Source: Antedon bifida (lineage: Eukaryota > Echinodermata > Crinoidea > Comatulida > Antedonidae). Taken from it: DNA of 64,000 nucleotides. Location of the stretch: the NCBI GenBank assembly GCA_963402885.1, contig OY727102.1, forward strand, positions 18,476,001-18,540,000, read 5' to 3'. This document shows, piece after piece, positions 10,880 to 62,473 of the stretch; the stretch's first letter is position 1; the number at the start of each line of letters is the position of its first letter. A program made the translations under genes and the position numbers. The notes below the pieces were generated by a model. The model ran no database searches. It was not told the origin of the DNA and saw nothing but the letters and a program-made list of their open reading frames with translations.

Positions 10880-12650
10880 TACGGTGGCCCACAACTATCA
10901 CGCACACTATAACACAGAATCACACAATTAAAGAAGGAATTACACAATTAAAGAAGGAATCACACAATTAAAGAAGAAATCGCATATAAACAAAAGAAAG
11001 CATGAAAATATAAAACGAAATGCACAAATAAAGAAGAAATGCACAAATAAAGAAGAAACGCACAATTAAAGAAGAGCTAAGCACAATTAAAGAAGTCCGC
11101 AACAAATTCGAAAGCTCCTCGCACAATTAAAGAAGTCCGCAACAAATTCGAAAGTACCTCGCACAATTAAAGAAGTCCGCAACAAATTCGAAAGCTCCTC
11201 GCACAATTAAAGAAGTCCGCAACAAATTCGAAAGTGCCTCACACACAATTAAAGTACAGTAGTCCGTATGGAACGCCATTGCTGCCTCCAGCAGCAAACT
11301 TTAATTCTATTCGGCTCTTTTACCATTACGTTTGGCTCTTTTACCATTCGGCGCATTTCTATTCGGCGCATTTACCATTACGTTCGGCTCTTTCAGCATT
11401 CGGCGCATTTCTATTTGGCCCATTTACCATTACGTTCGGCTCTTTCAGCATTCGGATCTTTTTTATTCGGCCCATTTACCATTACGTTCGGCTCTTTTTA
11501 ATTCGGCCCTTTTTTATTCGGCTCTTTCTGCATTATGTTCGGCTCTTTTTGATTTGGCCCTTTTTTATACGGCGCAATTAAATTCTAACCTTTTACATGG
11601 GGTCAAATGGAAGAAAATCAACGGCTGGAAATGAGTCTATGAAAAGTTTACAAAACATATAGATGCAGCATGTAAAGTGTTTGGTTGGTTGAATTAAATG
11701 AATTTGAAGGCTATTTCAATTTATTGACATGATTAATGTGTTAGCTAGAGAACTTGCAATTGTCCCACCTTATTGACCATTTTGAGAGAGAAAAGGTTTG
11801 ATTTATGGCCTAGGCTAGCTAGGCCTAGCCTGTGTCAGCCTAACATTTAATAATAATAATTTACCCTTTCTCTCTCAAAATTTGTTAAAAGATGAATTAA
11901 TTTTAGGTTATTCAACACATCTTTAATCGGTTGGCTACTCATGGTTGGCGCCATGATGATGAAATGTTTGTAAACTTTTCATAGACTCATTTCCAGTCGT
12001 TGATTTTCTTCCATTTGACCCCATGTCAAAGGTTAGATTTTAATTGCGCCATATAAAAAAATGCCGATTTAAAAAGAGCAGAAAGAGCCGAATAAAAAAG
12101 GGCCGAATCAAAAAGAGCCGAACGTAATGTTAAATGGGCCGAATAAAAAAGAGCCGAATGCTGAAAGAGCCGAACGTAATGGTAAATGGGCCAAAAAGAA
12201 ATGCGCCGAATGCTGAAAGAGCCGAAGGTAATGGTAAAAAGGCCGAATAGAAATACGCCGAATGGTAAAAGAGCCGAAGTAATGGTAAAAGAGCCGAATA
12301 TAATTAAAGTTTGCTGCCGGAGGCAGCAATGGCGTTCCATACGGACTACTGTACTTTAATTGTGCGAGGTACTTTCGAATTTGTTGCGAACTTCTTTAAT
12401 TGTGCGAGGAGCTTTCGAATTTGTTGCGAACTTCTTTAATTGTGCGAGGTACTTTCAAATTTTTTGCGGACTTCTTTAATTGTGCTTAGCTCTTCTTTAT
12501 TTGTGCATTTCGTTTTATATTTTCATGCTTTCTTTTGTTTATATGCGATTCCTTCTTTAATTGTGTGATTTCTTCTTTAATTGTGTGATTCCTTCTTTAA
12601 TTGTGTGAATATGATTTATATAGTGTGCGTGACAGTTGTGGGCCACCGTA
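10880..12650. mobile_element. 1.77-kb foldback DNA element with minisatellite arms
   Basis: Both ends read TACGGTGGCCCACAACT inward (10880 rightwards; 12650 leftwards), and TAGACC flanks both sides (10874-10879 and 12651-12656), a good target duplication. The arms are about 700-780 bp. Each holds CACAATTAAAGAAG-type units, then a 40-bp tandem unit (four copies at 11081-11240 in the left arm, three at about 12357-12476 in the right), then a GC-richer block of 15-21-bp units around TTCGGCTCTTT and CGGCGCATTT. The palindrome continues to AGTCTATGAAAAGTTTAC at about 11634 and its complement near 11968. The spacer shows no transposase. The long reading frames inside the arms are repeat artefacts. 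The superfamily is not recognised. Confidence 0.85.
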
Positions 12651-42119: not shown

Positions 42120-42935
42120 TTTAGACATTTATGTAGTATTTAGGCTAGCCTAGGCCTACTACTACTAGGCCTACTAGTCTAGGCCTTCTCTAGTAGGCCT
42201 ACTCTACTAGGCTAGCTAGCCTAACTAGCTAGGCCTACCCTGGCCTAGCCGGATGCTAGTCAAGTCGCCCCATCGCAAAGTCGCCCCATACAAAGTCGCC
42301 CCTTACACAGTCGCCCCATCGCAAAGTCGCCCCAAAACAAAGTCGCCCCGACACAGTCGCCCCATCGCAAAGTCGCCCCAACGCAAAGTCGCCCCATCGC
42401 AAAGTCGCCCTATCGCAAAGTCGCCCTATCGCAAAGTCGCCCTATCGCAAAGTCGCCCCAAAACGTTAACAAATAGTTTACAAGTGCGTAAAATGTCGCA
42501 ATGATACACAAAATAACACGGGACGTGTAGGCATAAAAGGGGAAGCCCCGCCATAAACATTATAATGTATACGACATTTAGCGCGACCAAAGTAACAACG
42601 CAATCGATATCAAACGCAACCATATGATTAAAACAGTGGGCGACTTTGCGATGGGGCGACTTTGCGTTGGGGCGACTTTGCGATGGGGCGAATTTGCGAT
42701 GGGGCGACTTTGTAATGGGGCGACTTTGCGATGGGGCGACTGTGCCGGGGCGACTTTGTTTTGGGGCGACTTTGCGATGGGGCGACTTTGTATTGGGCGA
42801 CTTTGTATGGGGCGACTTTGCGATGGGGCGACTTGACTGGATCCCGCCTAGCCTAGCAGTAGCTAGCCTAGCCTAGTTAAGTTAGGCTAGGCCTAGGCCT
42901 AGTCTCCTCCCCTAAAACTAGCTAGGCCTAGCCCT
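42120..42935. repeat. AGGCCTAG-rich low-complexity flanks
   Basis: Palindromic CTAGGCCTAG and GCTAGCCTAG words are densely repeated on both sides of the foldback element (42140-42245 and 42845-42935). The same word type is common elsewhere in the window (for example 54120-54180 and 54790-54910). Confidence 0.6.
42258..42838. mobile_element. 0.58-kb foldback element built of CAAAGTCGCCCC repeats
   Basis: The left arm (42258-42462) is a tandem series of about 15-17-bp units of the form CAAAGTCGCCCCATCG. The right arm (about 42645-42838) is the same in inverse orientation (GGGGCGACTTTGCGAT). Both ends read AGTCAAGTCGCCCCATCG inward. The spacer of about 180 bp has no coding potential. It lies in the presumed 5' UTR intron of SKIC3. 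The four bases GGAT lie at 42251-42254 and again at 42839-42842, but a clean target duplication is not proven. Open frames inside are repeat artefacts. Confidence 0.8.
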
Positions 42936-43860: not shown

Positions 43861-46800
43861 ATGAATATTTTCTGTCCATTTTGTATTTGTTTGTATATAA
43901 TGATGATCCTGGTCGACTGTTGTAGTGGTAAGTTTTCTTTTATTGTTTTATAAGATTCATTTTCGCGAGGAAAAAAAAATTAAACATTGAACGTCTGAAT
44001 GCTTTTTTTTCATAGGGGCGTGTTTACCTCGCGCTCTTGGAGTGGAGTCGGGAGAGATTCTAGATGAACAAATGCATGCATCAAGCATCAACGGCAATAA
44101 CTATAATTGGGCTGGTCCACCACGGGCAAGGCTCAATTCTGTTGCCAATCGTCTACATGCCGGTGGATGGGGTCCTCATTACAATACAAACCAGTGGATT
44201 TGTGTCGATTTTGGAGAAAAGAAGAGAGTTACTGGAGTCATAACACAAGGAAGATATAGTTCGCCTGACTTTCCAACTCATCCTGAATGGGTCACTTCTT
44301 TCTTGTTCTGTTATAAGGTCGCAGCTTCTAATTCTTATACAATTAATTTTCAAGAAGATTGCTATAACAATGTAAGTAAACAATTTCTAAATTAAGTTTT
44401 TATTCCAAAAGGAAATAAGAGGCATATACGTTCCATAAAAAGATACCAGACATTTACTTGCATTGCAGGTGCAATCGGAAAGTCACTAAGTGACTGAAAC
44501 GGCGACGATATTGAGTAATTACCATTTTTATTTATGTATGTGGTTTTTCTAGACATTTACTGGTAACACGGACAATAATAGTCCGGTTGTGAACATGTTG
44601 CCATATGAAATCGAAGTCCATGTCGCCTTTATCGTACCACAATCATGGACAAAATGGCCCGTCATGCGATTTGAAATTCTAGGCTGTTTAGGTATGTGAA
44701 TATTTGAAACAAAATGTACCGTATCATTTCAATAGTGATGTTAAAATAAGTTTTACAATTGTCGTTTATTCCACAGAGATATAGCTCAATGTTTATTCAA
44801 TTTCATTTGAAGAACATTTATTAATTTCAATAATTGGGTATCCTGTATTAGAAGAAAATAAGTTTCTTGTCACATGCAAAGAAAAGATAACAACAAAAAA
44901 ATTTTCAGAAAATGTGCTTATAACTTATTTTAAATTAATAATAATAATAAAAATTAATTAATTGAGTTTTTAGTAATTTTTTTTGAAAGATAAATATTGA
45001 TTTAGCGTTTTTTAAACTTTCATCAAGTTTATTGCATGTTTGTGGACCTGTAACAGTTAAAACGTTATTGTTACAGTTACTCTTAATCTACGAAATGGTA
45101 TTTTAAGATAGCAAACTTTATTCGAGGACCATAAATTTGTGTTGTATCAATCCTTATAAAACAACGTCATATGTGTTGGCCTACGGCTCTTAATTTGATA
45201 TTTTGATATAGTGATTATTTCTGTTCTAGAAAATCCTGATGACTATATTGAAGATAGTTCTATTCAATCAACAATAAACTACATTGATAATGTTAATGAG
45301 GTGACACGTTTACAGCTTAGTGAAATGGATAAACAAGGCGGCGAAAAGCGTTTTACTGAACCAGGTAAGACGAAGTGCTGTAGGCCTAAACATACGGAAA
45401 AGAAAGTCACGCGCATTCCGAAACAGTTACCATTGATATCGTTTTGTCGAAAGAAAATCTTGTTATAGACCTCATTTTATTCAGTAATTTGCCTTTTATT
45501 TGGAATATTATTATTGATATTATTCACAGTCGAAGGAGTCTTGTTATGGACACCCAACACTGATGAGGGAATCGTTTCAGTGGATATCAGCGAAACGGCA
45601 ATACAGCTCGTCCCTTCTTCTAATTCAGACGCCCGTTCAGACGGTAACGACAATTAAACAGTACAGCTAATAATATTCTTTTCGTCAATGCTTTAGTCTC
45701 AATCAGTTCATTTGATGTTATTCGCTCGCTGATGTAACAACTTTATTACTAAAAACATTCTATATTTAATGCAATGCTACATACCGTGTAGATTTTCATA
45801 CACGACAGCAACACTTTCCAAGCAAAAGTTCAATAAAGTTACACAGATACACAATGAACTTAATGCTTAAAGATGTTTTGTCCCCCCAAAAGATGAAAAA
45901 TGAAGATTAATTAAATCAGACTTTGAATATCTTAGTTTGTAGTTTTAATAAGGTCTGTCACTTTTGTAGAAAAAAAAATGTTTTCACTGTACTTAGGCCT
46001 ATAAAATGACAAAATAGATGGTTAAATTCAACCAAAAATCCATTGGCTGGCAGCCAATTTTACCATTTTTTCAGGGAAATACATTTTTTTTCGATCCAAT
46101 TTTTTGTCAAAGTGGATAACTATTATGTTATATTACAATGGCATATTCAACAAAAATTGTGTTCAGAATTATTTTTTCAGGTGGACAATACATCTTTAAG
46201 CAAAATTTAGGCATATACTATTTGTATCATTTATACATGGTTGCGTTTAATATATTCATGCATTTGTGATTTAAATAATTAATGATTACCTTTTTAACTT
46301 AATTTCAGAATATCTTGGTATGGCAATCTTTGTAGTTAACTCCAATGAAAGCGAGGCAGTACATAACTTGTACGATTTACAACCAATTTACTAAATAAAT
46401 ATAATCTAATAGACCAGTAAACGTAGTAGGCCTAGACGTCGTCATAATTCGATATAGAATACTCAATGATCAATAGTTTCTAATGACCGCTTACTTGCAT
46501 ACTGTAGACTGTCTGCCAACATTTTAGACAAGTTCTACAACATTAATGGTAGAAGTTCAATTAAGAAAATCAGCAGTTTTAGAGATCTGAAATTATTGCT
46601 GTTTATAGAGAAAATTAAAATGTCTTCTGTCTTTGTAATTTTACTGTAAAAGTTGTAAGAATTTGACTGACAATGTATTTTATTATTAGAAGACGATTTT
46701 ATAATAAAGATACCAAGGGTTTAAATAAACTTAAAGGATACTATTAAGCTATAAAGCCTTGTCTATACTATCAAACTTTATGTGACAAAAAATGTGATGT

Positions 46801-49800
46801 GCCCATATATGGAGATGATGATGTAATACCACTACCATATTAAGGCATATCACTACCATATTTAGGCAAATCACACTGTAGACAAAGCTTAAAACAATAA
46901 AGATATAATTTTTTTTTCAATTCAAGATATCAATTTATATTTCCACAATAGGCCTAATAATATTTTGAGATAAGATAAGAGATCCAGAAAATTTATTCCA
47001 CGCTGTCTAAAAGAAATATAATTTTATCAACAGATCTGGCATTCCGATGACACTAATCAGCGATATCATATCTATAAATGTATATGACGTAAATTTAGAT
47101 GAAGTAACGGATGTGAACATCAACATAACATTGCCGCCAGTAAGTCATCAGGCATTGTCCCCCGAAAAAATGATTTATTAACATTTTTCCGGACCCCTCA
47201 TCCTTAAACTTTTTGGAGGTTCAATATATTTAATCGTGTGTATATAGTTAATCACTTTGACCAAAATTAGATCCAACACAATTTATTTACCTGTAATATT
47301 CTATTATTTAAACTGTTGTCCAATAATTATATATATTACATATTGTTATGGTGATTATAGGCCTAATGATGTATAATATGTTTTACTTTTAGCATGCTAA
47401 CAATATTCAAGAAAATCGAAAGCTAACGTGCTGTTTTTTGGATGGAACAACATCAGATATACCGTAAGTTCAATCAATGAGGGATTGGTCTACTCATAGT
47501 ATCACATAAATAAACAAACAAAAAAACACATTACTATGAAATTATTATTGTTTCTTTGTAAGATTTTGGTCAACAGAAGGTTGTTCAATTGAAACGGATA
47601 ACAACCAAGCGGCAAGTGTCACGTGCGTGTGCAACCATTTGACTTCTTTTGCGATTCTTATGCAAGTAGAGAGCAGTAGCAGTGAGGTATTCGTTTCTAA
47701 AAGCAAATTTGATTAACCACAGTAATTTGCATGACTTTAACCATCAAATTGCCTATAACCAATTTGTTTTTGTTCCCACTTGTACGTAGTGTAGCGACTT
47801 AGGTGCAACGCAATTGCTTTGATCAAATTGCCTGTGGTGCGCTTGTGTTCTTGCGCAAGTTTATGTAACTTTCACAATACATGCCTACATTATTTATCAT
47901 GAATTCTTTGCTTCCGTAAAATCTTCATTTTTATCCCACACATACTTTTATCTTCTAAATTGTCTTCGATTTGGCAGTTCTAAGTATTAGTAGCTTTGAC
48001 AATACATTCCTATAAATATTCTCTTATTTATCATGAATTCTTTGCTTCCTTAAAATCTTCATTTTTATCCCACACAACTTTTATCTTCTAATTTTCATCG
48101 ACTTGATAGTTCTAAGTATTAGTAGTTTTGACAATACATTCCTAAATGTTTTCTTATTTATCATGAATTCTTTGCTTCCGTAACTGTCATCTTCATTTTT
48201 ATCCCACACCTACTTTTATCTTTTTTTTTTATCGATTTGGCAGTTTATTTATTATACAATTATTACATAAACTAAAAATATAACATTAACGGCATAATAT
48301 GTTCGACGCATCTTATTATTGTTTCTGATAATAAATTGACTGTGCGTTTTTAGGTACTAGACGAAGTGAAGGAACTGATAACAAGCGTACTGACGTTGAT
48401 CGGTATTTCAATTTCAACCATATTTCTAGTTTCAATCATAATCATCATATACATGATACCGTGAGTTTGTTCTTTTACATCACTTTTAGTAACAAGAGCT
48501 TACAGATATATTGTCTCCTTAACAAACATTTTTTTTCCCAATTTTTTTAAAATATTCCATTTTAATGTCACATATTAGTTATTCACTTTGACCAAAAACT
48601 GAATCGAACAAAAATGATTTACCTGAAAAAAAAATGTAATTTAAAGCAAAAATACTTAAATTGTCTGTCAGACAATGATTTTTTGTTAAAATTAACCGTT
48701 TATTTTGTCTTTAAAGTTATTACAGAAGTAAATAACTTGATTAAAACAGCAATATTGCCTATTTAAAGTCTGATTTTATTAATCTTCATTTTTCATGTTT
48801 TGAGGGACAATATATCTTTAAAGTAACGTTTAGTTTGTCACTCGAGCAAACCCTTGAGTTTGGCAAAAAATGATAGTATAGAGACCAGATGATAAACTTC
48901 GGCAGGATTCATTTGCAGAAGGTAGGTCGTGTCTAGAGAAACTATTTGCTCATGCTGAGGTTTGTAAATTCACCGAATCGAATGACAGATAAATGCTTTG
49001 CAATCCTCTCTCATGAAAGCGCAATAAAGTATAGGCTTATTTGATTTCAACAACAACAAAACTAAAAGCAACACGATTCAAGTAAAAACTATTCAAGTGG
49101 TCACTGTACTTATCTCCGTGGCGTCTAATTTAAGCTTGGTTCCCACTAGGACGCAACGCAAGACGTAAACGCAACGCAAACGAGGTGACCAATGACTGAT
49201 TAGTCAAATCCCTTACGTTGCGGTACGTCGTTGTGTTGCGTCTCTAGTGGGAACCAAGCATAAATAATACGCTGCGTTAGACTAAACGCGTGTGTGAATA
49301 TAATACAAGTAACCACGGTCAAACTATTGCAATTGTATTACAGAGAATTGCGTAAGAATGAACGCTTTGTTATTTTGCGGCACCTTGTGATTTCTCTTCT
49401 CTGCATAAACACATCATTCACATGTCTGACACTGAACATTAAACAACGTGTAAGTAATTTTTTGTTCTTAATTGCAAAAATTAATTTGGATTGTGTAGAT
49501 TCACGACCCAAAGGAAATCACGCGTCCTTATTTGCATATTCAAAGTTGCGGTCCCATGATGAATATGTCCTATATCTCTAATAAAGTGATTTAATTTATG
49601 TTCTAAAACGGTGTGAAATTTTGAATATTCAAGTTAGCTTGGCACATTATAGATAATTCCAGTGTTTGACACAGTATTAAGCTCCCAGAAGCCAAAATAT
49701 CTGCGCAATCGCATAATTATGTATAAACACTTTCGATCGTGAGAATATGAATCCGCTCGCGATTCTGGAAATTCTACAAGGTCTACATGGACATATTGAA

Positions 49801-51635
49801 GAGTCCATGGGATACTAAAATGTTTAGTTTTTCCTGATAGTGTAAAACAGACTTTTTAGATCTATTTTAGGTTATTTGCACTATTGTAGCTGCAAGCCTT
49901 CATTATAGTCTGCTCGTATCCTTCTTGTGGATGATTCTCTGGTGTACAGAACTGTACTGCAAGATCAGACATCCGTTTGCAGATCACCAGAAACGTTTTA
50001 AATACTTTCGAGTGATTGGTTGGATGCTGCCTCTTGTAGGTGTAGCAACGGTAGTTGGTGTTACGAGAGAGGAATACGCATCGTCCAGGTAAAAATTATT
50101 TACTAAGTATAGTATATTAAGACGATATAAATATTAACATTTTCAGAGGGCTTCCTTCCAAAACATCGGGAATAAACAGAAACATGCATCCAATGTTGAC
50201 TGACTTCGAAACTTTCCTAGAACCGGTAGTATGTATAGGAGAACAACTTCCTATCAAATTACTTTTTATAAGAGAATTGATGATACATTTTAGAATCTTT
50301 GTCATTTCAGTTGCTGGTTGAATACAAGTAATCGAGTGATCTTGACGTTCATTGTACCAGTTGCTTCAACTATTCTGGTAATATTCTCCAATTGATATGT
50401 CTATATTGAACACTGCAGCTGCTGGTGTGCATGTTCGTTTTATGTTCATCAAACCTGTAGTGGTGGTTTTTATCGCTGTTGGTTTCAATTAAATTTTGAA
50501 ATAAAATAGTATGACATCCACAAATAGTACCGTAATATGTTATTTTAAATATTGAATACAAAAAAATGTGCAGTATTGCAAAAACATCAAGTGCAATATA
50601 TTGTGGTAAACTTGATTCTTTTCACGACTAAGCTGCACCTTTTCCGGATCCACTAATATTTCATTTTAACTTCAATTGTATTCTCCACAGATTGTATCAG
50701 TTCAATTAATCGTTGTATTTTATGAAGTATATAAAAAATCAACATCAATGCCTACCAGCGAACATGATGAACATCTGAAGTTGAAGAAACTAAGGTAAAG
50801 CTCTGTCTACACTTTATGTGACAAAAAAATGTGATGTGCCCATATATGGACATGATGATGTCATATTACTACCATATTTGTGCATATTTGGGTATATCAT
50901 ACATTTTTTGTCAAACTAGTTTGATAGTGTAGACTGAGTTAAAGATAGTTCAGAAGGCATTTGTCTCTTTTACGGCTAATTTGTATAAGATGCAACATAT
51001 TTATGGACTTTTTTTCCATTATTAATTATCGCTATCTTCATTGTTGTAGATCAATGTCATACAGGGTGTTGCTGTTAGCCCCAGTGGTTGGATTGCCGTG
51101 GGTGACGGGCTTCTTCGTCATTCTTAATGATTCAATGTATACTCAGTTTATTTTCATCGTTTCTGCTGCATTTCAGGGGTTGTGGATCTGGATCTCACAG
51201 TTTTGCCTAAGTCAAGAGGTAGGTAGCCATATCGTACTTTTTTTGTCAAACTAGTTTGATAGTGTAGACAGAGCTTTAAAATTCTGGATTTGATATTACA
51301 ATTTAATCCAATTATTGCCAATAGCACCACTTGCTTTCCGGTGGCAATTAAGTTTACTAGGAATTAATCGATAGTTAGTTAAAAACATTTGATTCATTTT
51401 CAGGTTCGATATGCCTTCAGGAAACACTTTCAATGTTTTAACAACCAGATATCGTCGAGAAAAACCACCACTACAATTACGAGGGTAAACAGTATATATT
51501 GCTATTTATTTTAAAACGGCATTAATTCATTAAAACGTGAAAAATATTCACCAACTTCTGAAATACTATATTTATTATTAATTATCAATTATATCTTTAT
51601 TCTTTCAGACTGACCTCCAGACTTATTTTACCTGA
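43861..51635 (+). CDS. Adhesion GPCR with N-terminal discoidin (F5/8 C) domain
   Basis: 17 exons: 43861-43927, 44016-44371, 44553-44691, 45230-45364, 45530-45643, 46309-46369, 47034-47139, 47393-47463, 47563-47686, 48354-48460, 49344-49449, 49871-50088, 50311-50377, 50691-50794, 51050-51218, 51404-51484 and 51609-51635; 683 residues. Order: signal peptide (about 1-21); discoidin domain (about 24-187) with LGVESGEILDEQMHASS, WICVDFGEKKRVTGV and the closing MRFEILGC; an acidic linker; a short GAIN region; a GPS motif (CCFLDGTTSDIPFWSTEGC, then CVCNHLTSFAIL) keeping the HLT autocleavage triad; then TM1 (STIFLVSIIIIIYMI) to TM7, with the family-B2 TM6-7 stretch GLPWVTGFFVIL and FQGLWIWISQFCLSQE, and a 35-residue tail. 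It should be a surface receptor whose tethered agonist starts at TSFAILMQ. The ligand is unknown; discoidin domains bind glycans, phospholipids or collagen. The exon 6 donor (TT then GTACGA) is the weakest call. AATAAA at 51932. Confidence 0.9.
45867..46199. mobile_element. MITE family D, full length
   Basis: TTAAAGATGTTTTGTCCCCC at left, GTGGACAATACATCTTTAA at right. Interior GAAGATTAATTAAATCAGAC is shared with 31351-31680. It lies in intron 5 of the adhesion GPCR. Confidence 0.75.
46753..46890. mobile_element. MITE family A copy, diverged
   Basis: Left AAAGCCTTGTCTATACTATC, interior GGAGATGATGATGTAATACC, right CACTGTAGACAAAGCTTAAA. Intron 6 of the adhesion GPCR. Confidence 0.7.
47891..48240. 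repeat. ~132-bp tandem triplication in GPCR intron
   Basis: TATTTATCATGAATTCTTTG begins at 47891, 48025 and 48155 (spacing 134 and 130). Each copy goes on with CTTCATTTTTATCCCACAC and ACTTTTATCTT; the third is incomplete. It lies between the GPS exon and the first transmembrane exon. Confidence 0.85.
48504..48823. mobile_element. MITE family D copy
   Basis: Left AGATATATTGTCTCC, right GAGGGACAATATATCTTTAA. Interior TTTGACCAAAAACTGAATCG and TTACCTGAAAAAAAAATG are the complement of the usual inner block, so the copy is inverted relative to 31351-31680. Another short decayed fragment sits at 47150-47240. Confidence 0.65.
49132..49262. mobile_element. MITE family B, complete
   Basis: TAAGCTTGGTTCCCACTAGG at left, CTAGTGGGAACCAAGCATAA at right, with GACGCAACGCAAGACGTAAA and its inverted partner inside. 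It is next to exon 11 of the adhesion GPCR. Confidence 0.8.
50797..50940. mobile_element. MITE family A abutting an exon donor
   Basis: Starts AAAGCTCTGTCTACACTTTA only two bases after the last base of adhesion-GPCR exon 14 (50794), so its first bases form part of the GTAAAG donor context. Right end TTTGATAGTGTAGACTGAGT. Confidence 0.8.
51230..51276. mobile_element. MITE family A right-end fragment
   Basis: TTTTTTTGTCAAACTAGTTT then GATAGTGTAGACAGAGCTTT. It starts about 12 bp after the exon 15 donor. Confidence 0.75.
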
Positions 51636-52280: not shown

Positions 52281-53711
52281 CTAATCAGTTGACTTTGGTA
52301 CTCTTTTCCTTCTTTGCCTTCCTTTTCTTTTGCTTCCCTCACTTCCCGATTTATTTACAATATTTCCTTCACTTCGTTTCTTTTTCTTTTTAACCGACAA
52401 TGGGTTTGGTCCTTTAGGTTTTTTCTTTTTAAAACGAACTCTCTCAGCTTGCGGCAAGAATCTTTGTTTTAATTTCTTAAGAGTGTCTTTTTCCTCCGTT
52501 GAAGGTGCCAAATTATTGCTTATTTTACTGTCTGCAGTTTTTTGGGACACAACTGACGGTTTTTCTAATACAATGGCGTTGAAGTTTATATACAGCAAAG
52601 GTGCGGCTGGAACTTTTCTCAATTGGTTTGATAAATCTGGATCCTATTGAGTTCAAGAAACAATTTGGTTAAGTTTGAACTACTGTACTATACTATCACA
52701 ATGTATTCTCAAATGGACATAAAATCTATGATTGAAGGCTTATTTTTTGGAATTTTATTTATGTTACACAATCTTGTTGAAAATAATATAGGTAATATAA
52801 CTTGAATTTTAAGTTTCTGGTATTTTTATTCAACTTCGGATTTTTATTTTCGTGCTACAGCAAAAATTATCCACCGTATACCCACCATCTTTTTTTCACT
52901 TGCTAGGGAATCACCAGACATGTTATTACATTAGGTTAATCACATGATCAGTGGAAAATCAATTAAACCAACGACTTTAGCCTACCTGAGTTGCAATAAA
53001 GTAATGATGCTGGTTACCATCCACTAGCATACTCAATAGACACTCTGACGCACCGACAGGTTTACCGTGATGTGCACATTTACGCACTTTAAACCGTTTT
53101 AAGATTGACATGGCACCATACAATTTACTCCCAAGGTTTTCCATTTCCGATATTGCGCAATTGGTAGTGAGAAGCTTTTTAAAAAAATAAATTATCATGT
53201 TAAGATATCTCAAGATTTGGTTTCAGTAAATACAGTAGGTACCTGTGTATGGAGTTCACTCAATGGAAGATAGGTAGCTTTCTATTCAATCTGTGAATGA
53301 TATGATGCGTATTATAAGCACAGAATACTGTATTGTGTTTAATTTTCAGTCTATACAAAATCTAGGAAGCTAGCCATCAATTGTGTTGACATGTCTTTAA
53401 ATCAAAATGCATTTTAGCAGCTAAGACTGAAAGCGCATTCTACTCCCCTGTTGCGGTCTGTTAACTCTCTCGATTTTGTCTCGAAAAATCTAAAGCTTTA
53501 AAATGGTGTAAATCATGAAAATGCAGTGCTTAAGTACCTGTACTTCTTCTCCAATATATTTTGGTATCTGTTCCTTGAGATTGATTTTGTATTGCAGAGC
53601 CATGTTGGTGAATGTACCATCAATGAGAATCTGGTACGGTGCTCGAAACTGGTAGTTGTTTTTATAAAATGACAAAAAGCGCCTTGCATGTTTGTATCGC
53701 CTCACCTTCAT
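52281..53711 (-). CDS. UTP23: rRNA-processing protein UTP23 (PIN domain)
   Basis: Three coding exons: 53711-53538, 53174-52986 and 52643-52281; 241 residues (human 249). The N-terminus MKVRRYKHARRFLSFYKNNY and the block PYQILIDGTFTNMALQ are the PIN-like fold start of the family. The zinc-binding pattern appears as a Cys at residue 64, then RKCAHH, then ASECLL; NQHHYFIATQ follows. The tail (residues about 170-241) is basic, with runs such as RFKKKKPKGPNPLS and RKGRQRRKR, typical for nucleolar proteins. UTP23 belongs to the small-subunit processome acting on 18S rRNA maturation at the early cleavage sites; the PIN site is thought not to be catalytic. A good acceptor lies 10 nt upstream of the ATG (CTCTCCCAG at 53722-53730), so a non-coding first exon is expected upstream, toward EIF3H. 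Confidence 0.94.
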
Positions 53712-60671: not shown

Positions 60672-61490
60672 TTACGACTGTTCTCTCAAACAGACACCAG
60701 AATTATAATGGTCAGGAACATATCCTATTTTAATTTTATTTAAATCGCACAAATAGGCTTTCAAGCTTCTCGGTAAGTTTAGATTTTCTACGTCTTGTGA
60801 AGATCCTTTTAAATTTCTCATGAGAACCATTCGACATCGATCCTGCAATGTGGTCATTTCACGCCACGCTGATGCTAGAGTCATGATCGTCTTTGCTGCC
60901 GTCGAAGAAATCATTGGATATATTTCCTCCGTCACTGCGTCTAAGCCATCAAAAGCAACACCAATAAACACACCATCTTGATAATAGCTTAGTGTTCCCT
61001 GCATACCGTCGAAGTAAACGCCAATCGTCGTACTTTTGTTTTCGGTAAACGGTTTAGTGTATATCTGTGACGTACCATTATGCCAAATCAGTCCTTTGTG
61101 GGACAAACCCCAACTCATATTGTTTTCACCAAGAAGATTAACAAAGGCATCAACATGCGTCCTTGCTTGTTTTGTTCCGATACCAACCATCATACTCGTT
61201 CCGAAAACACGACTGTTTATGTAAATTTCCCAATAATAACGTCCTCCGTTGAGGGCCTTGGTGCCACGGACGCCGGCCGTACCATTTGACCAATTAGGAT
61301 GAAAGAAACTCTTGCGAAAGGCAACACCTTCCAATCGGCACTCGTGTGACTTGGTTTCTAGATCCCAAGTCCAGTTGTCTGGACAAAAGTTTCGTACTGG
61401 AGGCTCGTCAATATAATTGCAACTAAAATTGTAACTCATTTTACTGAATTGTTGAGTTAATAATTCTACAAATGATACACCTGATTCCAC
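60672..61490 (-). CDS. SPRY and SOCS-box protein, SPSB3-like
   Basis: A single coding exon of 272 residues. After WTWDLETKSHECRL comes the SPRY domain (about residues 40-215) with the SPSB3-type run FFHPNWSNGTAGVRGTKALN, GGRYYWEI, RVFGTSMMVGIGTKQAR, VDAFVNLLGENNMSWGLSHK and TTIGVYFDGMQGTLSYYQDG. The C-terminal SOCS box has LQDRCRMVLMRN and LPRSLKAYL, the elongin-binding and cullin-contacting segments. Such proteins act as substrate receptors of a Cullin-RING ubiquitin ligase. The first in-frame ATG is at 61490; Met-18 at 61439 is an alternative. An acceptor after a long pyrimidine tract (TTTTTTTTTTACAG, ending 61640) implies a non-coding first exon, probably ending at 62474 (AAGAC then GTAAGTATG). 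Confidence 0.92.
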   Translation of the reverse strand: MESGVSFVELLTQQFSKMSYNFSCNYIDEPPVRNFCPDNWTWDLETKSHECRLEGVAFRKSFFHPNWSNGTAGVRGTKALNGGRYYWEIYINSRVFGTSMMVGIGTKQARTHVDAFVNLLGENNMSWGLSHKGLIWHNGTSQIYTKPFTENKSTTIGVYFDGMQGTLSYYQDGVFIGVAFDGLDAVTEEIYPMISSTAAKTIMTLASAWREMTTLQDRCRMVLMRNLKGSSQDVENLNLPRSLKAYLCDLNKIKIGYVPDHYNSGVCLREQS

Positions 61491-62473
61491 AGATTCAAGA
61501 GTGTCAACTATACAATGTGTCTACTGAAACATGATTAAATTATCACTGTGATAAAATTGTTTCTCAGTTTCTATGACAGACCATGAATTTGCCAGGAGCT
61601 TGAAAGGTCATTATCAATCACACATTAAAAGTACAAAATCTGTAAAAAAAAAACAAAAAGACAATTACATCTTTAAAACACAGATAGGCTTCATATAATT
61701 CAAAAGAACATGTCATGTAGAGGAATTATTTAATATTGTGTCGTCGGTATGTGCAGGTACATGTATCAGTAATAGGGAGATTCATTTCAGGCTAATGTTA
61801 TTGTATTTACTCATAAATAATTATTTGAGAATTATCACTCGATGGATTACTGTTTCTCTTTCACACATTAAAATTGATATCACCTTTATGAGATGCACAT
61901 GAGTTTCTTTCGTAATGTGAAAATGATAACATAAAAATAAGACCAAAAAAATAGGCCTCAAATCGAGGAATCAAGGAATTTTTCTTTCATCCGAAAAAAA
62001 GTAAGTTAAAAACAGGACTGCATCCAACCCAGTTTCATCAAATTATTTGAATTTATAATGCAAAAGATAAAACATTGAGCTGCTCAACACTTCATTTCAC
62101 CATTTTTATACACCTCATAATATACATGAGTATTGATTTATTGTACTAGCTTAGATCTTGCATTGTGTGCTTCTTTCTTGTCACAGGGAAATAAGGAATA
62201 ATATGAGAGTGCATCTTTCTTATTGTAATTAGTAAAAACAGCAGGAAATTATAATAGAGACAGTTTCAATCTTGGTCTCAGAAATTAGGTCCATTGTCAG
62301 TTCTCCATCACGCTAAGCTTCGAAATGTCTCGTTGCTGTTCAGACCATAACATACAGTTAGATGAGAAAGCCCAATCTAATCATTACATAGCGTATAGTG
62401 ACTCGAGTCTTTCTTGTAGGTTACTCAATGGTTAGGCCCAAGCAAAACGCAATAGGTTTAGTAGCATACTTAC

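Follow-up and report, generated by a model that had tools for sequence, protein, structure and literature searches.

Does positions 43861-51635 (+) of a 64,000-nucleotide stretch of the Antedon bifida genome hold a single gene for an adhesion G protein-coupled receptor (GPCR) with a discoidin (F5/8 C) domain as its head, and did this head arise once or several times among the receptors of this crinoid? The stretch, here called the window, is C15:18476001-18540000 (C15 is contig OY727102.1 of assembly GCA_963402885.1). The mitochondrial contig of this genome, C27, points to a probable echinoderm: with AAA translated as asparagine (NCBI table 9, the code of echinoderms and flatworms), the ND1 frame beside COX1 reads ETNRTPFDL, with the asparagine expected at this place, and every other table leaving the frame open gives ETKRTPFDL; the large sets of discoidin domains and adhesion GPCRs agree with this. 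Judged from its sequence, 43861-51635 is one real gene for a discoidin-headed adhesion GPCR, and its head was probably captured separately from those of the other discoidin adhesion GPCRs in the genome.

The gene comprises 17 exons and 16 introns, all of the latter GT-AG, and reads as one frame of 2052 bases for 683 residues (Table 1). A preliminary description of this DNA had proposed a 17-exon model, and we reproduced its product length exactly. The same description listed a signal peptide, a discoidin domain ending in ILGC, an intact GPS and a seven-helix region of the B2 class; hydropathy analysis and Pfam matches above the cut-offs bear this out. The domain scan of the 683-residue product found F5_F8_type_C at residues 43-183 (53.0 bits, cut-off 28.2; profile positions 3-127 of 127), GPS (PF01825) at residues 338-382 (36.8 bits, cut-off 22.5), and 7tm_2 (PF00002) at residues 402-638 (118.2 bits, cut-off 20.6), the last encoded by exons 10-15. 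Profile searches of the genome likewise hit discoidin in exon 2 (C15:18520075-18520314, 40.3 bits) and GPS in exon 9 (C15:18523567-18523659). The hydropathy profile has a single N-terminal peak, read as the signal peptide, and further peaks across the seven-transmembrane (7TM) region.

Directly before the first transmembrane helix (TM1) lies the cleavage motif CVCNHL↓TSFAILMQV (the arrow marks the predicted cut, after L376), which is of the GPS type CxCxHL↓T/S. The discoidin domain does end in ILGC and is bounded by the cysteines C25 and C186, which are predicted to form a disulfide and are both kept in the paralogue described below. In phmmer searches of the PDB with the whole protein, the C-terminal part (residues 326-671) matched ADGRL3 (E 5.5e-34) and ADGRD1 (E 4.4e-33), and the N-terminal part matched neuropilin-1 (E 1.5e-20), also the best match of the discoidin domain alone (E 1.3e-22). 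With its secretin/adhesion-type 7TM, GPS motif, signal peptide and adhesion-type ectodomain, the product falls into the adhesion GPCR class B2. The 7 Pfam families listed for it include no kinase (a tyrosine kinase with a single membrane pass would mark a DDR) and no REJ, PLAT or polycystin channel, as would be expected of a polycystin-1/REJ-like protein.

The GAIN region had been put at 130-150 residues; the count is 190 when C186, the final cysteine of the discoidin domain, and L376 are taken as its limits. It is short all the same, as previously noted, and its subdomain A appears to be reduced or absent; for the exons of subdomain B, the alignment with ADGRG6 and others starts near residue 296. 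According to the available part of a 2026 review (PMC13197933), the number of helices in subdomain A varies, in some subfamilies, between two and six; ADGRG1, ADGRG3 and ADGRE5 retain autoproteolysis with a short subdomain A, as we propose for the window receptor. Against this background a short GAIN region is nothing unusual, and its length here would be compatible with cleavage. A missed cassette exon restoring a full subdomain A, the other explanation that had been offered, is unlikely: when the stretch from exon 3 to exon 9 is compared with the paralogue by blastn, the colinear similarity marks exons 4-9, and the sole extra colinear block falls in intron 6, within a repeat. The weakest exon of the model is exon 6. 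Its support comes from the paralogue, where an exon of 61 b agrees with it in length, in phase and in its donor, GTACGA, though identity is only 0.30.

Divergence between two copies on one contig

In the 315.6-Mb assembly (27 contigs), separate searches with the 7TM and the discoidin query gave coinciding best non-self matches at C15:18771954-18780281 (-). Exons 2-15 of the paralogue found there equal those of the window gene in length modulo 3, and their phases match; we picked the donor of its exon 5 so that the frame stays open. Its three Pfam domains (F5_F8_type_C, GPS, 7tm_2) are identical in kind to those of the window gene, and both genes retain HL↓T and TSFAIL. The remaining exons have candidates: one with a signal-like peptide for exon 1, among several open stretches there; VRYAFRKH... 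for exon 16 (tblastn E 9e-10); and TDLQPSFT plus a stop for exon 17 (E 1.7, the peptide being too short for significance). In tblastn comparisons exon 3 has the same length (139 b) and is 73% identical, exon 7 is 86% and exon 12 is 93% identical. Exons 4, 5 and 9 are 70%, 75% and 90% identical, with ratios of nonsynonymous to synonymous change (omega) of 0.51, 0.19 and 0.225, respectively. Past the last exon of the paralogue, within C15:18769400-18781399 (-), we observed a decayed copy of window exon 1 and the DNA preceding it (92% identity over 134 bases, with stops that break the frame), followed by pieces matching window intron 3; this is the remnant of a third copy.

Taken region by region, identity and omega are 0.55 and 0.60 for the discoidin domain, 0.73 and 0.29 for the linker (exons 4-5), 0.63 and 0.80 for GAIN exons 6-8, 0.90 and 0.225 for the GPS, and 0.90 and 0.18 for the 7TM; exon 6 alone has an omega of 1.27 on 20 codons, with an amino acid identity of 0.30. 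The 7TM omega of 0.18 led us to reject a pseudogene reading. Within the discoidin domain, the three distal loops, as we delimited them after alignment, have 15 of 42 residues identical compared to 73 of 116 elsewhere (Fisher p 0.0035). Distal loops generally form the contact face of discoidin domains. As read from these comparisons, the GPS-7TM engine is under purifying selection and the discoidin domain changes faster, most of all in its distal loops. Synonymous divergence (dS) is uneven along the gene, at 0.29 in the 7TM (exons 10-15) and 0.55 in the discoidin domain (exons 2-3), and gene conversion of the 3' half may explain this difference.

Heads of related receptors in the genome

The genome match lists hold the best-scoring candidates, and counts drawn from them are lower bounds (for HYR and LDLa, 150 scored matches of 1376 and of 974 candidates, respectively). 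A discoidin match lies within 20 kb upstream and on the same strand for 8 of the 122 listed GPS matches; for none of the 122 does one lie within 20 kb downstream, and for none on the opposite strand. Narrowing the distance to 15 kb upstream leaves 7 GPS matches, where 20,000 rotations gave 0.16 on average and never more than 4. This control used 115 discoidin rows of the 159 matches, after manual removal of second-exon pieces, which begin at or beyond profile position 76, and took the lengths of some contigs from their last match.

Through tblastn and profile searches of fetched DNA we found discoidin, GPS and 7TM in this order at at least eight loci (Table 1; loci are named by contig and megabase position). 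Gene models exist for the two C15 genes, and the six others are candidates. The locus profiles were built from the eight loci themselves, so that their E-values are flattering; independent Pfam profiles support the discoidin domain at all eight, the GPS at seven (not C12:11.95) and 7tm_2 at six, the exceptions being C11:27.86 (tblastn E 5.8e-5) and C7:35.58 (tblastn E 1.1e-4). Three loci (C12:12.86, C12:11.95 and C11:27.86) each have two discoidin first-part exons, and among the wider loci the gap between discoidin and GPS reaches 10.7 kb (C12:12.86). A GPS with a discoidin match about 18 kb upstream (C9:6.05M) was left out of the eight. We also discarded a discoidin exon at C15:18.90M as a further receptor: tblastn with the window protein gave no other match in the 20 kb examined there, and it lay outside the profile search.

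To place the discoidin heads on the history of the engine, we relied on 7TM trees of 22 genes (two exon blocks, 125 columns of which 124 were kept; C12:12.83 contributed one block only). These genes are near 7TM matches or discoidin carriers rather than a census, and upstream DNA was examined for 12 of the 22. The window gene and its paralogue fall inside a 15-row clade (support 100/100) without the other six discoidin carriers. A single discoidin clade is rejected by the approximately unbiased (AU) test with all 22 rows (p 5.2e-6), with 20 rows after removal of the two longest branches (p 7.6e-7), and with 17 rows after removal of five long rows (p 1.2e-4). A tree of the discoidin domains themselves (81 columns, 16 rows) neither supports nor refutes independent capture, because its sole starred branch is the one joining the window gene to its paralogue.

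None of the four relatives examined in the 15-row clade has a discoidin match within about 7-13 kb of its GPS. In one of the two C16:1.70 genes, the three pieces scanned ahead of the GPS are HYR (23.9 to 43.8 bits, cut-off 21.7), and the second gene shows repeated matches to these pieces. At C14:1.07, two upstream pieces score 33.4 and 26.3 bits as LDLa (cut-off 24.1), and C13:15.01 has a piece that matches; the LDLa match C14:1066130, among the matches listed, also lies upstream of the C14:1.07 GPS. All these HYR and LDLa pieces are separate fragments rather than gene models. A fifth clade member, C14:3.00, has LDLa matches at C14:3007908 and C14:3012167 (-), 3.4 and 7.7 kb upstream of its GPS. 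For the two genes nearest by tree path, C1:6.21 and C12:5.64, the upstream DNA was not examined, and the matches listed contain no nearby discoidin, HYR or LDLa. Related engines thus seem, on this sequence evidence, to carry different heads. We regard as evenly balanced the broader proposal that these are modular families, in which a conserved self-cleaving GPS-7TM engine has been refitted with discoidin, HYR and LDLa heads, discoidin having been captured independently at least twice, and in which the heads, especially the distal loops of the discoidin barrel, act as fast-diverging variable contact sensors. Judging from the match lists, HYR heads may be frequent among the adhesion GPCRs of this genome; HYR matches were seen a few kilobases upstream of a same-strand GPS at several further places, for example at C9:29695012 (-) with C9:29690096 (-), and at C8:12070176 (-) with C8:12064575 (-).

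Proposed mechanism, alternatives and known systems

With reasonable confidence we favour a reading in which the gene encodes one adhesion GPCR composed of a signal peptide, a single F5/8 C domain, a linker in which GAIN subdomain A is reduced, a GAIN subdomain B that carries an intact GPS, and a B2-type 7TM, which works through a tethered agonist and whose head was captured separately. The receptor would cleave itself between L376 and T377, and its discoidin domain would grip a ligand that sits in the matrix or belongs to an adjacent cell. Binding of this ligand, or tension, would then release the N-terminal fragment and uncover the tethered agonist TSFAILMQV, which in turn would activate the 7TM and then a G protein. 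That neuropilin-1 is the closest solved sequence mildly favours a protein over a lipid as the ligand.

Several points weigh against this reading. The case is built on genomic sequence. Across the trees, the discoidin label needs at least 3, 3 and 2 changes, so that one gain with later losses would fit, and the tree tool warns of long branches meeting. When the linker-GAIN stretch was used as a phmmer query, known GAIN chains aligned only from about residue 109 of 204 onward, and the fast change of GAIN exons 6-8 makes their folding less sure. Gene conversion could inflate the contrast between discoidin and 7TM, and loops, here delimited by ourselves, vary in most domains.

Had the model merged two adjacent genes, one for a small secreted discoidin protein and one for a headless adhesion GPCR, the join between exons 3 and 4 would be spurious. 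Read-through from exon 3 into the intron stops at once (GCLGM and a stop), so that a soluble isoform made by intron retention is possible. We give this explanation next to no credence. An artefactual fusion is, on the genomic evidence, very unlikely because the paralogue, at a distance of about 250 kb, preserves exons 2-15 and their phases, those of the linker and exon 6 among them; its discoidin domain, linker, GAIN and 7TM are all in place. Moreover, exons 4-5 are constrained coding sequence that is sensible only as a bridge, the domain order recurs at eight loci, and in the 20 kb around the 122 listed GPS matches there is no discoidin match downstream and none on the opposite strand.

The origin of the head leaves more room for doubt. 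All discoidin carriers could descend from a single ancestral discoidin adhesion GPCR whose head was lost or replaced in most descendants, an alternative that we consider possible but clearly the less likely one. Loss is easy, and the discoidin adhesion GPCRs of amphioxus, known to us from a figure legend (PMC2246102), make an old origin possible. The label is moreover clustered on the 7TM tree (3 changes compared to a mean of 6.8 on shuffling, a value as low being reached in 3 of 500 shuffles), and the discoidin-domain tree is undecided. What speaks for separate capture is that the 7TM trees reject a single discoidin clade and that the clade relatives examined have HYR or LDLa pieces in place of discoidin. 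A different doubt concerns function: the discoidin domain might be an anchor or brake on the membrane lipids or matrix of its own cell, with signalling that is independent of cleavage or constitutive, and the head would then be no variable ligand sensor. Factor V/VIII- and lactadherin-type discoidin domains bind lipids, and such domains are among the PDB matches of the discoidin domain. We nevertheless find this proposal doubtful, as the best sequence match is neuropilin-1, which is not known as a lipid binder, and the distal loops diverge quickly between the copies. We thus retain the tethered-agonist receptor with a separately captured head.

The ADGRG1, ADGRG3 and ADGRE5 receptors bear heads that differ from discoidin. 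ADGRL3 and ADGRD1 resemble the window receptor in GPS, HL↓T and 7TM; the match is confined to the C-terminal half, and we do not claim orthology. Neuropilin, to which the discoidin domain is closest among solved sequences, is a single-pass co-receptor. DDR1 and DDR2 also have a discoidin head on a signalling receptor; these are tyrosine kinases with one membrane pass, and the window receptor differs from them by its 7TM. Surveys of sea urchin and hemichordate GPCRs reportedly exist. In titles and abstracts, with most subscription journals outside the coverage, we did not find an echinoderm discoidin adhesion GPCR, and we do not claim a first description.

Discoidin (DS) is listed among the adhesion GPCR domains 'unique for amphioxus' in comparison to human in the legend to Figure 2 of Nordstrom et al. 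(2008; PMC2246102). Since the domains of amphioxus adhesion GPCRs thus include discoidin, the combination is already of a known kind. This comparison concerns another phylum, in which adhesion GPCR domains, LDLa among them, have been much shuffled, and it extends as far as the legend; the legend marks two cases with domains at the C-terminus, and whether DS is one of them is not evident there. In the body text at hand, discoidin goes unmentioned. The preliminary description was right in seeing a discoidin-headed adhesion GPCR and went too far in calling it lineage-specific, given the amphioxus DS and the several such genes in this genome. Its remark that no human adhesion GPCR carries F5/8 C fits the wording of the amphioxus legend, and discoidin is unmentioned in the available part of the 2026 review of adhesion GPCRs (PMC13197933). 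It is likewise unmentioned in the accessible portions of studies on choanoflagellate (PMC12716839) and sponge GPCRs (PMC4302439), and the corresponding portion of PMC4890752 has nothing on discoidin adhesion GPCRs. The part of PMC2394772 at hand lists GPS and F5_F8_type_C both as hub domains and does not name their combination. The polycystin-like Nematostella protein Nv1874 combines GPS and F5_F8 in one chain, which is annotated, in the excerpt available, as a PKD channel with REJ and PLAT and is no GPCR (PMC4877951).

What our analysis adds is a set of at least eight ordered loci in one genome that do not form one 7TM clade, which we read as discoidin heads having been captured repeatedly on a conserved self-cleaving engine. 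For the general question of which ligands exert a pull on adhesion GPCRs, this receptor would be a handy model: it is compact, at 683 residues, and sets a lone recognisable ligand domain beside a minimal GAIN and a canonical tethered agonist. Similar engines with different heads in one genome would allow head swaps on a constant engine. If repeated capture of discoidin is true, this fold would suit force- or contact-driven activation.

Coordinates and other features of the window

Table 1. Positions of the receptor gene's exons, of related loci and of a short repeat (window positions unless a contig is given).
Feature	Position	Strand	Content and evidence
Exon 1	43861..43927	+	Start codon and signal peptide (MNIFCPFCICLYIMMILVDCCSG); GT donor; hydropathy peak 2.38, residues 3-21
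Exon 2	44016..44371	+	Discoidin, first part; F5_F8_type_C 53 bits over exons 2 and 3
Exon 3	44553..44691	+	Discoidin, last strands, ending ...RFEILGC
Exon 4	45230..45364	+	Linker, probable last helix of short GAIN subdomain A (helix predicted)
Exon 5	45530..45643	+	Linker / start of GAIN subdomain B
Exon 6	46309..46369	+	GAIN subdomain B; 61 b; donor GTACGA
Exon 7	47034..47139	+	GAIN subdomain B; ADGRG6 alignment begins at residue 296
Exon 8	47393..47463	+	GAIN subdomain B, running into the GPS motif (CCFLD)
Exon 9	47563..47686	+	GPS motif and tethered agonist (W..GC...CVCNHL↓TSFAILMQV); Pfam GPS 36.8 bits
Predicted self-cleavage site, codons L376 and T377	47639..47644	+	Motif
Exon 10	48354..48460	+	TM1; hydropathy peak 405-423
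Exon 11	49344..49449	+	TM2; Pfam and hydropathy
Exon 12	49871..50088	+	TM3-TM4; paralogue tblastn and hydropathy
Exon 13	50311..50377	+	C536 before TM5, TM5 start; Pfam, paralogue, hydropathy
Exon 14	50691..50794	+	TM5 end and third intracellular loop; Pfam, paralogue
Exon 15	51050..51218	+	TM6-TM7; Pfam, paralogue, hydropathy
Exon 16	51404..51484	+	Cytoplasmic tail; paralogue candidate
Exon 17	51609..51635	+	Tail end TDLQTYFT and stop codon; paralogue candidate
Paralogue	C15:18769400-18781399	-	About 250 kb from window gene
Loci with discoidin, GPS and 7TM in order	window, C15:18.77, C13:15.32, C12:12.86, C12:12.83, C12:11.95, C11:27.86, C7:35.58		
Arrays of the 21-base unit	7836, 25792, 26231, 35188, 36825, 37655, 41221, 46826, 55613, 57661		

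A search of the window against Rfam at gathering thresholds gave 0 matches. A 16/46-base minisatellite (AAGTCGCCCCATCGCA and its reverse complement) forms two arrays that face each other at 42262-42460 and 42638-42834, some 1 kb before the receptor gene begins. Nested inverted tandem arrays (units AATTAAAGAAG and TTCGGCTCTTTT, then their reverse complements) surround a spacer of about 500 bases at 10918-12627; our guess is that this structure resembles a foldback element whose arms are repetitive. Short arrays, each with two to three copies of a 21-base unit (CATATCACTACCATATTTGGG, its reverse complement or variants of these), are scattered over the window, and one of them (46826-46874) lies within intron 6 of the receptor gene; we would guess that the unit is the core of a short palindromic element. 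Downstream of the receptor, a UTP23-like gene with UTP23_sensor and Fcf1 matches is found at 52281-53222 (-), and an open frame of 282 residues at 60672-61520 (-) bears a likeness, by eye, to a SPRY/SOCS-box protein.

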